Shown piece by piece: positions 3,407 to 12,611 of a stretch of DNA of 12,611 bases (the first letter of the stretch is position 1; every line of letters starts with the position of its first letter). Origin of the DNA: CAVPRW01 sp046727435 [NCBI: bacterium] (GTDB lineage: Bacteria > Tectomicrobia > Entotheonellia > J063); assembly GCA_046727435.1 (NCBI GenBank), contig JBKPCR010000428.1:1-12611 (forward strand), given 5' to 3'. Made by a program: the position numbers and the translations under genes. The notes below the pieces were generated by a model. The model saw only the letters and a program-made list of their open reading frames with translations, was not told the DNA's origin and searched no databases.

Positions 3407-3697
3407 CTATTCTGGGCCCAAATCGTTGGGGGTCCACTGCTTGAAGGCGTCGATCACGGTCGTCCGAATATACTCCCGCGTGGCGGCGTCGACAGGTACG
3501 ACTAAGTCATAATAGCGTCCGTTCCGCCCACGCTGGGTTGGAAAGGCGACAAACAACCCACCGCCAGCTCCTTCCACCACGCGCAATCCTTTGAGGACCA
3601 GACAGGAGTCAATGGTGATGTCGGCATACGCCCGCGTGTGTCCACCGAGGCTGCCGGTATCAAATGGGTAAATGCGCACCTGGCTAATGTTTATCAT
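3407..3697 (-). CDS. spoVG: SpoVG family regulatory protein
   Basis: SpoVG is a small nucleic-acid-binding regulator, first known for septation and sporulation effects in Bacillus but widespread in non-sporulating bacteria. The 96-aa product matches the family from its first residues: VRIYP (7-11), a Y-A-D-I-T-I-D strand (24-30), GLRVVEGAGGGLFVAFPTQ (37-55), and a YYDLVVPVDAATREYI segment (62-77). Length is typical (about 85-100 aa). Possible upstream starts at 3733 (TTG), 3721 and 3709 would overlap the predicted promoter and add residues unlike the family, so ATG 3697 is preferred. No Shine-Dalgarno sequence precedes it, which fits a leaderless message. It heads a two-gene unit with trmJ. 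Its targets in this organism are unknown. Confidence 0.93.
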   Translation of the reverse strand: MINISQVRIYPFDTGSLGGHTRAYADITIDSCLVLKGLRVVEGAGGGLFVAFPTQRGRNGRYYDLVVPVDAATREYIRTTVIDAFKQWTPNDLGPE

Positions 3698-3704
3698 AGG
3701 ATAT

Positions 3705-3733
3705 ACCATACTGTGGTGCATGCGACGCGTCAA
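3705..3733 (-). promoter_or_regulatory. Candidate spoVG promoter giving a leaderless transcript
   Basis: Minus strand: TTGACG (3733-3728), spacer of exactly 17 bases, TATGGT (3710-3705). Initiation seven bases downstream falls on 3698-3697, the first base of the preferred spoVG ATG. The -35 is five of six and the -10 four of six consensus bases. It lies back-to-back with the queC-side promoter. Confidence 0.5.
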
Positions 3734-10295: not shown

Positions 10296-11690
10296 ATGAA
10301 CGAGCGCAGCCGCAACGATCAGCTCGTCGTCCCACCGGAGCGGGACGAGATGTTCCCTGCTCTTGCCCCAGGCATCGACCCCGAGGATATCCCTCCGCTC
10401 TGGCTCCTCCAATCCAAGCTCCCCGTCCTCGAAGCCTTCATGACCCTATTTCGCGGGTCGATGACCGACAGTGTCGTCCGGCTGTTGATCCTGGGGGAAA
10501 TGGGACGACGCGGCCAGGCCCCGGAATGGACCTTTGCAGAGCTGCGGCAGACCTTTGCATATTTGACTCCATCCCCGCTCGAAAGTGCCTTACGCCGCCT
10601 GCGCGTGGGTGGCCTGCTGCGCTATGATGCCACTGAAAGCGCCTATGTCCTCACGCCCGCGGGCCTACGCGTCTACGGTGCGGTAGCGGCGCTGTTTCAA
10701 CTGACTGAAGAGGATGATCTTGGCTGGATCACCGGCGTCGTACGGGCCAGCTACGAGCTCGGCACGCTCACCCCTGAGGTGCTGTCGCATCTGTTGTATC
10801 GCTTGCGTCGTCTGGAGACCGAGCTCCAGCAAGCCGTGGAAGCCCTCTCTGAACCGCGGATCCTGCATGCCCGCGAGCGTTTGACCAGCATCTGGTCATG
10901 GATCGAACGTGGCAGCGCGATGATCGCGCAGATCGTCCAGGATTCGGCCCTGGACCGCGAGCTACATCGGGTGGCGCAGCAAATCGGCCGGGCCCAGAGT
11001 CGACTCTTGCGCATGACCACCGTCTTCCAGCGGGTCCTGAACGACATCGATCGCCAGCGCGTGCATTTGGGCGCGACTGGGCTCTCAACCTCCGACCTGG
11101 TGTTTTTTCTGCGGCAATGCACGCTGGATGATCTGGGGCGGTTGATCGCTCCCCACCTGGCGCATCCCGTGCGCCCGCTCTTCCTGTTAACCGATCTCAT
11201 CACCGACCAGGCGGAGTATGAATTATTACAGCGCAAGCGTCACGTCGTCGAGTGGTGTGACCTCCCAGAGGCCCAGGATTCGCCAGTCTCGCCGCCACAG
11301 CGCGCGGCGGAATTCCCCGAGTTGGGACGCCTGGTCACCCAGCTACAGGGGGAGACGCGCCCCACCGTCCCGCTGACCGAAGTCGTGCCCTGGGGGTCAT
11401 TCGAAGAATCCGCCTATCGTCTGAGTATGCTGTCCTTGCTTGGCGATAGCGAAGCGGCCGAAAGCGGTGGACTGGTTGCCAGGTTGGCGTCACTACCGTA
11501 TACATTAGCAATCGAAGCCGAGGAGGCGGTCGTCGAGCGCGCTGGCGTAGCTCGGATGAATGCCGGGCACTTGCATCAGCTGTCGCACGTGAAGCCTGAG
11601 CATTCTCCCGCTGCCCCTCTCCCGGAGGGAGAGGGAGTAACGGAGATCAGCTCGGGAATCATCCGCCAGGAGGCACGCTATGTCCCCTGA
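10296..11690 (+). CDS. Kleisin-like subunit of an SMC-type complex (JetA/MksF-like)
   Basis: A 464-aa soluble protein with no signal peptide. I identify it chiefly from context: it is first in a coupled trio ending in an SMC-like ATPase, the order of mksF-mksE-mksB and jetA-jetB-jetC, and its size is close to JetA. An N-terminal winged helix is plausible at about 48-133 (TDSVVRLLILGEM, FAELRQTFAYL, SPLESALRRLRVGGLLRY, YVLTPAGLRVYG). It is followed by a mostly helical middle at about 160-260, then a C-terminal domain (about 360-430). Residues 440-447 (APLPEGEG) are encoded by a palindromic repeat, and the last 25 or so residues look non-conserved. It starts at ATG 10296; GGAGGG at 10272-10277 is too far for an ideal ribosome site. 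It overlaps the next gene by 11 bases. In such complexes the kleisin bridges the ATPase heads. Distant homology, so the name is inferred. Confidence 0.62.
   Translation: MNERSRNDQLVVPPERDEMFPALAPGIDPEDIPPLWLLQSKLPVLEAFMTLFRGSMTDSVVRLLILGEMGRRGQAPEWTFAELRQTFAYLTPSPLESALRRLRVGGLLRYDATESAYVLTPAGLRVYGAVAALFQLTEEDDLGWITGVVRASYELGTLTPEVLSHLLYRLRRLETELQQAVEALSEPRILHARERLTSIWSWIERGSAMIAQIVQDSALDRELHRVAQQIGRAQSRLLRMTTVFQRVLNDIDRQRVHLGATGLSTSDLVFFLRQCTLDDLGRLIAPHLAHPVRPLFLLTDLITDQAEYELLQRKRHVVEWCDLPEAQDSPVSPPQRAAEFPELGRLVTQLQGETRPTVPLTEVVPWGSFEESAYRLSMLSLLGDSEAAESGGLVARLASLPYTLAIEAEEAVVERAGVARMNAGHLHQLSHVKPEHSPAAPLPEGEGVTEISSGIIRQEARYVP
11615..11635. repeat. GC-rich palindromic repeat, copy 2, inside a coding region
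   Basis: Perfect nine-base arms (CCCTCTCCC at 11615-11623 and GGGAGAGGG at 11627-11635) around a GGA loop. It has the same composition and arrangement as the inner part of the copy at 2217-2262. It is read in frame within the kleisin-like gene as PLPEGEG, near the 3' end and about 45 bases before the start of the next gene. Confidence 0.7.
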
Positions 11691-12363
11691 AACCGATGCG
11701 GTGCGTGTGCTGGTCTGTCGTCTGCTGGCGCATCAAACCCTCCCCCGCACCGATGAGTTGGTGCGCCGCCTGTTCGTGGATGCAGCCTACCGGGAGGGGG
11801 TAGAGAGTGCCTTACGGCAGGTTGGATTGGAATTGGCTGAGAATGTGTATGCCCCCTACATCGCCGTGCGGGTGACTCGTGAGCTGGAAACGCCGGTGTT
11901 TGAGGATGGCAAGGGCAGTTATTGGTCAAACAATGTCGGCCTGTCAGGAGGGGGCATGGCGCTGCTGACGATTCTCTGGAGCCTGCTGATTCTTCCCAAG
12001 CGTCAGCGACAGCAGGAAGGGCAGGGAGATCTAGGCGACCAAGATCGACAGCCCACAGTCCGTGCCGCCGATTTGGACATCGCAGTAGAACGCAAGACCC
12101 TTGAGGCCGATTTCGGCCATCTCTTCGGCAGTCAGATCCGCTTCCATGGCTACCTCAGTGAGCTCAAACGGCGCGGCTTCATCCAGGAGCGACGGGGCAA
12201 GATCACCGAAGGGCCCTTGCTGGATGTGCTGATTGACTATAGCACGTTGGCGCCACGCATCATCGAGGGGGCGCTGTCGCGGGTGTTGGCGGCGCGCTTC
12301 GATCAACCCTTGTCTCTCTCACCAACGGAGGCGGCTGAGGAGCCCGACGAGGAGACCTGCTGA
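11680..12363 (+). CDS. Small partner subunit of an SMC-type complex (JetB/MksE-like)
   Basis: A 227-aa soluble protein placed between the kleisin-like and ATPase genes, where KITE-type subunits (MksE, JetB; DUF4194-type) are found. Two winged-helix-like parts can be made out: one N-terminal (about 8-65, TDELVRRLF...VESALRQVGLELAEN) with a following GGGMALLTILWSLLILPKR helix at 90-108. The second is at about 137-187 (LEADFGHLFGS, FHGYLSELKRRGFIQERRGKITEGPLLDVLID). A charged Gln/Gly/Asp-rich linker (109-128) separates them, and the tail (216-227) is acidic. ATG 11680 has AGGAGG six bases or so upstream and overlaps the previous gene by 11 bases. Its stop directly abuts the ATPase start. In known complexes this subunit dimerises and binds the kleisin. 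The family is inferred from layout and fold pattern, with no single diagnostic motif. Confidence 0.6.
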   Translation: MSPETDAVRVLVCRLLAHQTLPRTDELVRRLFVDAAYREGVESALRQVGLELAENVYAPYIAVRVTRELETPVFEDGKGSYWSNNVGLSGGGMALLTILWSLLILPKRQRQQEGQGDLGDQDRQPTVRAADLDIAVERKTLEADFGHLFGSQIRFHGYLSELKRRGFIQERRGKITEGPLLDVLIDYSTLAPRIIEGALSRVLAARFDQPLSLSPTEAAEEPDEETC

Positions 12364-12611
12364 ATGTTCCGCTTCATGGCCCTGGAGCTCGTGCACTGGG
12401 ATTACTGGGAGCGGGTAATGCTGCCCCTCGACGAGTCGATTATCACCATCGTCGGTCCTAATGGCTCGGGCAAAACCACCTTGCTCGACGCCATGCGCAC
12501 GGTCCTCGCCCTCAACACCTCGCGCAAACGTTCCTACCCGACCTACGTCCAGCATTCGAACCGCCCTTATGCCTGGCTACGGGCGGTGGTGACGAATCAA
12601 CGCGATCATCG
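12364..12611 (+). CDS. SMC/Rad50-like ATPase, N-terminal fragment (JetC/MksB-like), cut by the right edge
   Basis: The 82 visible residues are the start of an ABC-type SMC head. A first beta strand (MALELVHWDYWERVMLPLD) leads to Walker A GPNGSGKTT at residues 31-39, then LLDAMRTVLAL. Next comes a segment with Lys/Arg, Tyr and a WLRAVVTN strand (70-77), equivalent to the region after the Walker A helix in SMC and MksB/JetC heads. The pattern 'alpha/beta strand, GPNGSGKTTLLDA' is typical for SMC, RecN, Rad50 and JetC. Context with the two preceding small genes favours MksB/JetC. ATG 12364 immediately follows the preceding stop, with GGAG (12351-12354) nine bases upstream. Coiled coil, hinge, signature motif and Walker B all lie beyond the window, so length and subtype are unknown. 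Confidence 0.8.
   Translation, partial: MFRFMALELVHWDYWERVMLPLDESIITIVGPNGSGKTTLLDAMRTVLALNTSRKRSYPTYVQHSNRPYAWLRAVVTNQRDH

Follow-up and report, generated by a model that had tools for sequence, protein, structure and literature searches.

A 12,611-nucleotide stretch (hereafter the window) of contig JBKPCR010000428.1 from the bacterium CAVPRW01 sp046727435 (Tectomicrobia, assembly GCA_046727435.1) ends in three genes, A, B and C, that likely encode the kleisin, KITE and SMC-ATPase subunits of a second SMC complex of the MksBEF/Wadjet kind, to which a nuclease encoded by gene D is an optional addition. All three genes lie on the plus strand. Gene A is an open reading frame (ORF) at positions 10296-11690 for a 464 amino acid (aa) protein, a MukF/JetA-like kleisin subunit by predicted fold, and gene B is an ORF at 11680-12363 for a 227 aa protein, a JetB/KITE-like subunit by the same kind of evidence. 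The 5′ end of gene C occupies 12364-12611; these first 248 bases encode 82 aa, open at the window end, of an SMC-like ATPase that is about 930 aa long in relatives, and the position of D, 3′ of C, falls beyond the window. A and B overlap by 11 bases, the start of C at 12364 directly abuts the stop of B, and ribosome-binding-like sequences were present just 5′ of B (AGGAGG) and C (GAGGAG). The 82 residues of C contain HWDYWERVMLPLD and the Walker A motif GPNGSGKTT. The ORF coordinates agree with a preliminary description of the stretch, which had noted three tightly coupled plus-strand genes with an 11-base overlap, an abutting start and GPNGSGKTT. It had also placed them in the MksBEF/Wadjet group, a membership supported here by the SMC profile matches of C and the predicted folds of A and B. 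ABC is a real, divergent SMC-kleisin-KITE lineage with an optional JetD.

Gene order and distribution of the relatives

Relatives were taken as the best 80 of 148 stretches matching the 82 residues of C in a scan of genome contigs. They belonged mainly to Rhodocyclales-type Betaproteobacteria, with some Gallionella/Sideroxydans and three Geobacter-like genomes (L006, L007 and L011). All 73 loci holding the three genes, some of them cut by contig ends, carried them in the order A-B-C on one strand. The recurrence of the three genes in 73 of the 80 relatives of C indicates that the arrangement is not due to chance. The A-B gap was 50 bases or less in 69 of the 73 loci, and the B-C gap in 41. Six of the seven loci without A and/or B begin at a contig end; the seventh, L027, contains C on a contig that continues, but the 10 kb upstream hold neither A nor B. 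Window A and window B were at most 41% and 46% identical, respectively, to their counterparts in the other loci compared.

Of 300 genomes sampled from the order to which a Zoogloea genome belongs, 45 contained A; so did 5 of 349 from the phylum of that genome (one weakly, E 3e-4) and 1 of 247 from the phylum of the Geobacter-type L011, the single hit being the L011 genome itself. These searches of whole-genome samples score three to six candidates per genome, and as so few are scored, absences can be misses. The profile of C, applied at E 1e-15 to 229 genomes of the Zoogloea class with at most three candidates per genome, found only its own centre.

The ATPase encoded by C

Judged by sequence, C is an SMC protein with Walker A, SGGQ and Walker B motifs and with evidence for a hinge in its relatives. 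As extracted, the C proteins were 882-949 aa long (median 930). SGGQ and Walker B were present in all 106 C proteins that were 880 aa or longer; Walker A had its usual form in 100 of them, a GQNGSGKT variant in five, and was cut by the chosen start in one. The C protein of L001 matched Pfam SMC_N over the cut-off (5e-17) and SMC_hinge just under it (7e-4), and the middle of the C profile matched the Smc structure 4rsj (E 2e-5) and, weakly, JetC. The preliminary description had named an ordinary RecN, SbcC or ABC protein as the outcome that would overturn its reading of the ATPase; the relatives of C matched SMC profiles, with hinge evidence, better than they matched RecN or SbcC.

In hhalign comparisons, C aligned with Smc at E 4e-24 and with JetC of Wadjet type I (JetC I) at E 5e-21, while JetC and Smc aligned with each other at E 3e-12. 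The C-Smc alignment was strongest over the hinge region. MukB was aligned over the head only (E 2e-5), and matches of the MukB N-terminal domain to C were weak (2e-4 for the window, 0.2 for L001, 0.05 for L011), none of them passing the Pfam cut-off. Among the PADLOC models, JetC1 ranked first for the C protein of L011. A 21-row tree of ATPase heads placed C in its own clade (support 96/98) beside JetC I and Smc. The preliminary description had found the opening of the ATPase unlike that usual in JetC; C does stand in a clade apart from JetC I. By the profile comparisons C lies at about the same distance from Smc as from JetC I.

Predicted folds of A and B

The preliminary description had proposed kleisin and KITE folds for the two small proteins, and models of moderate confidence bear this out, A resembling MukF and B resembling JetB and other KITE proteins. 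The AlphaFold models of A and B had a mean predicted local distance difference test score (pLDDT) of 75.5 and 75.7 and a predicted template modelling score (pTM) of 0.41 and 0.52, respectively. The first eight Foldseek rows for A were MukF/MukBEF entries (best E 7e-4, the rest 0.006-0.018), the matched chains being ones that we take to be MukF from their length. Alignment of A with MukF chain 9gm7_C gave a VIA Z of 11.5 over 277 aligned residues with a root-mean-square deviation of 44, which indicates an alignment that holds domain by domain. With moderate confidence, A is a MukF-like kleisin by predicted fold. For B, the top three Foldseek rows were JetB chains of Pseudomonas and E. coli Wadjet (8dk1_F, 8dk1_E and 8as8_C, E 6e-5 to 1e-4), and the next rows, at E above 0.001, were MAGE, ScpB, MukE and other KITE proteins. 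B is thus predicted, again with moderate confidence, to be JetB/KITE-like, the kinship lying at the level of the fold.

Sequence profiles added little for either protein. The A proteins of the window, L001 and L011 matched neither DUF3375 JetA in Pfam, nor PF09660 at E up to 1, nor PF02616 (ScpA); the MukF and MukB families of Pfam gave no match over cut-off, and no model of Pfam, NCBIfam or PADLOC passed its cut-off for the A members scanned. Window B matched DUF4194 weakly (E 0.0056), and among 32 B members there were weak matches to PADLOC JetB1 in two (best E 0.0016) and to DUF4194 in one. The LmuA and LmuC models matched none of 32 A and none of 32 B members at E 0.01. Comparison of A with JetA in hhalign gave a probability of 0.4, and profile-profile comparisons of A with JetA and MukF, of B with JetB and MukE, and of D with JetD gave no significant score; because the control pair, JetA and MukF, failed too, these null scores say nothing against homology. 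Canonical JetA rows (L122, L126 and L127) had been excluded from the A alignment, A5.

The optional nuclease gene D

The preliminary description had pointed to a possible JetD gene downstream. The family does include a JetD homologue, since the product of D (about 400 aa) matched the PADLOC JetD1 models in 17 of 17 proteins scanned, but it is optional: D lay within 1 kb of C in 17 of the 65 loci in which C is complete and followed by 1300 bases or more, a count in which L032, but not L052, L021 or L037, was taken to have D right after C. The glutamate motif of the Toprim domain was found in 26 of 27 D proteins and D-x-D in 25; D of L147 is without D-x-D and D of L148 is cut by a contig end. 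The D copy of G014/L032 is interrupted by an in-frame stop. L149-L151 carry, alongside ABC, a divergent D (35% identity or less to other D) with ACDLDPAG instead of ACDPDP.

Whole-genome searches for D and ScpA used 35 genomes hand-picked from the 80 loci. D was found in 12 of them and, at E 0.001, nowhere in the other 23. In the genome sample of the order, D was linked to A, occurring in 9 of 45 A-positive and 1 of 255 A-negative genomes (Fisher p 1.6e-7, one further weak match, G210, being left out), and the single A-negative genome with D has a fragment on which C and D are neighbours.

Many Rhodocyclales loci have, after C or D, a gene whose GGEEF motif, read by eye, makes it diguanylate-cyclase-like (e.g., L012, 14108-15208). 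In seven D-less loci named Zoogloea it starts 77-173 bases after C, and in three D-bearing Zoogloea loci 1305-1324 bases after C, with D taking up the space.

Gain and loss of D, and selection on ABC

On a quick tree of concatenated A, B and C (71 rows, of which 66 were scored, 24 with D and 42 without, the other five being unknown), the presence of D needs at least 15 changes, a count that does not separate gain from loss. D was scored as present by hand for L010 (on another contig), L021 and L148 (D cut by a contig end), L032 (interrupted) and L052 (5.5 kb away). Distances between D proteins tracked those between their ABC proteins (r 0.78, 0 of 2000 permutations, 24 loci), which suggests that D mostly travels with ABC. 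There were also hints of exchange, as D of Pseudothauera L067 and Thauera L029 were more alike than expected (2.1 standard deviations) and those of L016 and L028 less alike than expected (1.6 standard deviations).

The median ratios of nonsynonymous to synonymous substitution (dN/dS) for A, B and C were 0.187, 0.196 and 0.216 in D-less pairs (117, 168 and 199 pairs), 0.195, 0.163 and 0.149 in D-bearing pairs (6, 10 and 13 pairs), and 0.213, 0.213 and 0.230 in mixed pairs (37, 65 and 89 pairs); the pairs are non-independent, and L010, L021, L032 and L037 were counted as D-less here. The purifying selection seen in D-less pairs indicates that ABC is kept without the nuclease.

Chromosomal site and mobility

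Of 60 scorable loci, 56 had prfB, recognised by its release-factor domains, no more than 3 kb upstream of A, and a gene that we take, by reading, to be lysS (a class II synthetase of D, K, N type in the domain scan) lay downstream of C in 27 of 54. The window copy occupies another site and adjoins antiporter genes instead, those of an Mrp-type antiporter cluster lying upstream of A.

Searches of plasmid records with the A proteins of the window and L011 gave no match. C was found in plasmid records as halves only, in two Variovorax records, and three records contained D-like genes, 30-36% identical across 57-87% of the query; a scan of viral contigs gave no confirmed relative of C. These searches do not support a mobile defence island. 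The Variovorax megaplasmids (L101, 8001-12516, and NZ_LR594663.1, 179630-182181) bear C halves together with D-like genes, and in Variovorax WDL1 an IS1071 transposase gene comes after the N-terminal half of C.

ScpA was encoded in all 35 of the hand-picked genomes and a full Smc in 5 of 6, both separately from ABC; E. coli, used as control of the ScpA search, gave no match. ABC is therefore a second SMC complex in these genomes.

Other features of the window

A palindrome-like element of 22 bases, CCCCTCTCCCGGAGGGAGAGGG, lies at 11614-11635 inside the 3′ end of gene A, where 0.01 occurrences would be expected by chance. It codes for part of the low-confidence C-terminal tail of A (residues 432-464, pLDDT below 50), which the element may lengthen. 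The left part of the window encodes, on the minus strand, homologues of PilM (2-718), an M50-family peptidase (1071-2045) and SpoVG (3410-3733). At default thresholds the window yielded no tRNA, tmRNA or Rfam RNA.

Discussion

By analogy with Wadjet and MukBEF, dimers of C bridged by A and loaded with B would extrude DNA loops at the expense of ATP. D, where present, would fire on circular DNA after full extrusion, as in Wadjet, and in loci without D the same motor would work on the chromosome, like MksBEF and MukBEF. ABC would thus probably be plasmid-cutting with D and chromosome-organising without it.

Among known systems, Wadjet type I (JetABCD)/MksBEFG shares with the D-bearing ABC loci the order kleisin, KITE, SMC, Toprim nuclease, and the JetD1 and JetC1 profile matches and the JetB-like fold of B add to the likeness. 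It differs in that A has no DUF3375 similarity and B barely any to DUF4194, C is about 150 aa shorter (882-949 versus 1071-1123 aa for JetC as extracted), the nuclease is optional, and most scorable ABC relatives occupy a stable chromosomal site. For this comparison the three genes that follow a DUF3375 gene were taken, by position and length, to be canonical JetB, JetC and JetD. We take JetA of Wadjet type I to be of the DUF3375 type and that of type II to be of the DUF2397 type. Of 150 genomes of the order, 21 had a DUF3375 JetA over the cut-off, and three of these (G067, G091 and G112) also hold A elsewhere; a genome search for type II references (PF09660) gave no match anywhere, controls included.

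Smc-ScpAB is matched by C about as well as JetC I is, but the kleisin of ABC is MukF-like rather than ScpA, and ScpA and Smc are encoded elsewhere. MukBEF of E. coli resembles ABC in that the model of A is closest to MukF and most ABC members are without a nuclease; it differs in the length of its ATPase (1486 versus about 930 aa for C), in a sequence relation to C that is weak and confined to the head, and in that ABC genomes also have ScpA. Lamassu is alike only in LmuB, the top PADLOC match of the L001 C protein; since neither A nor B matches an LmuA or LmuC model and the predicted partner folds are kleisin and KITE, identity with Lamassu was rejected. MksBEF of Pseudomonas aeruginosa is likewise a second SMC complex beside Smc-ScpAB, and most ABC members are, like it, without a nuclease, which a minority of the ABC family nevertheless retains. 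Its three-gene order F-E-B, as described in PMC10123090, matches A-B-C.

The preliminary description had suggested an undescribed lineage. No separate record of the ABC family was present in the profile libraries and literature searched, the operon list (Data S1) of PMC7617805 lying outside the comparison; the absence of JetD is, however, no novelty, as PMC7617805, which describes a large operon survey, already gives MukBEF and several other members of the Wadjet group as being without MksG/JetD. A review (PMC10586767) proposes that MksBEF of P. aeruginosa arose from Wadjet defence by loss of JetD.

Several observations weigh against reading A, B and C as a second SMC complex that belongs with MksBEF and Wadjet and whose nuclease is optional. 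No JetA, ScpA or MukF profile matched A by sequence, and none of 32 A members matched the PADLOC JetA models. The A and B models are of moderate confidence (mean pLDDT about 75) with low Foldseek template modelling scores, and in the structural alignments unrelated MarR regulators scored almost as high as the assigned relatives: for A at Z 9.8, against 11.5 for MukF and 9.8 for JetA of Wadjet type II, and for B at Z 9.2, against 9.2 for JetB 8as8_C. B and C were more than 500 bases apart in 19 of the 73 loci. For C, the best NCBIfam model was Smc (4e-30 and 1e-28), far under its cut-off; LmuB (2e-21) came ahead of JetC1 (1e-18) in PADLOC for L001; and the head tree weakly (80/78) favoured a grouping of Smc with C against one of JetC I with MukB. 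Finally, the median dN/dS of C was higher without D (0.216) than with it (0.149, 13 pairs), and to judge from these substitution ratios C is perhaps a little less constrained without D.

Against this background, the most serious alternative is that ABC is a purely chromosome-organising, MksBEF-like housekeeping condensin, with D an occasional accessory unrelated to plasmid defence. The stable site near prfB and lysS, the lack of D in 23 of the 35 whole genomes, the purifying selection without D, and the plasmid and viral searches, which returned no A, C as halves only and no viral C relative, all fit it. We nonetheless consider it unlikely, as D is a JetD homologue in which the Toprim glutamate and D-x-D are nearly always retained, D tracks the relatedness of ABC, and it comes and goes at a fixed site in a manner that fits a nuclease with both cost and benefit. 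Reading ABC instead as a plain Wadjet type I that has drifted, its D-less loci being dead or dying defence systems, would account for the JetD1 and JetC1 matches, the in-frame stop in the D copy of G014/L032 and the halved C copies of the Variovorax megaplasmids. This is quite improbable given that A has no DUF3375 match, that C is shorter and forms its own clade, and that three A-holding genomes (G067, G091 and G112) have separate DUF3375 loci; the purifying selection on D-less ABC weakens it further.

That C is a repair ATPase of the RecN/SbcC/Rad50 type, or an LmuB-type ATPase of Lamassu, beside two unrelated neighbours is exceedingly improbable. The short N-terminus of C alone matches many ABC ATPases, and LmuB heads the PADLOC list for L001, but a hinge is indicated, Smc and JetC align along most of C, the conserved partners have predicted kleisin-like and KITE-like folds and match no LmuA or LmuC, and a JetD-type partner occurs. 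RecN/SbcC/Rad50 was rejected on account of the indicated hinge, the way C aligns with Smc and JetC, and the predicted folds of A and B. Within the preferred assignment to a second SMC complex with an optional nuclease, a bolder and rather doubtful, if possible, proposal is that ABC stands between canonical Smc and Wadjet/MukBEF, combining an Smc-like ATPase and hinge with a MukF/JetA-type kleisin and a JetB-type KITE, and that a JetD-type nuclease repeatedly comes and goes at one fixed site on the chromosome, converting plasmid cutter to chromosome organiser and back.

The system has been missed by current models: A occurs in 45 of the 300 genomes of the order, yet no Pfam, NCBIfam or PADLOC model detects it over cut-off in the members scanned. 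Within the ABC family, closely related loci that share a chromosomal site but differ in the nuclease, such as those of Zoogloea and Thauera relatives, form natural pairs, which makes a switch between defence and chromosome organisation directly testable in related environmental bacteria. As ABC occupies an ordinary chromosomal site and the DNA-cutting subunit is present in some members only, the family would be well suited to the study of how a defence machine and a chromosome organiser convert into each other.

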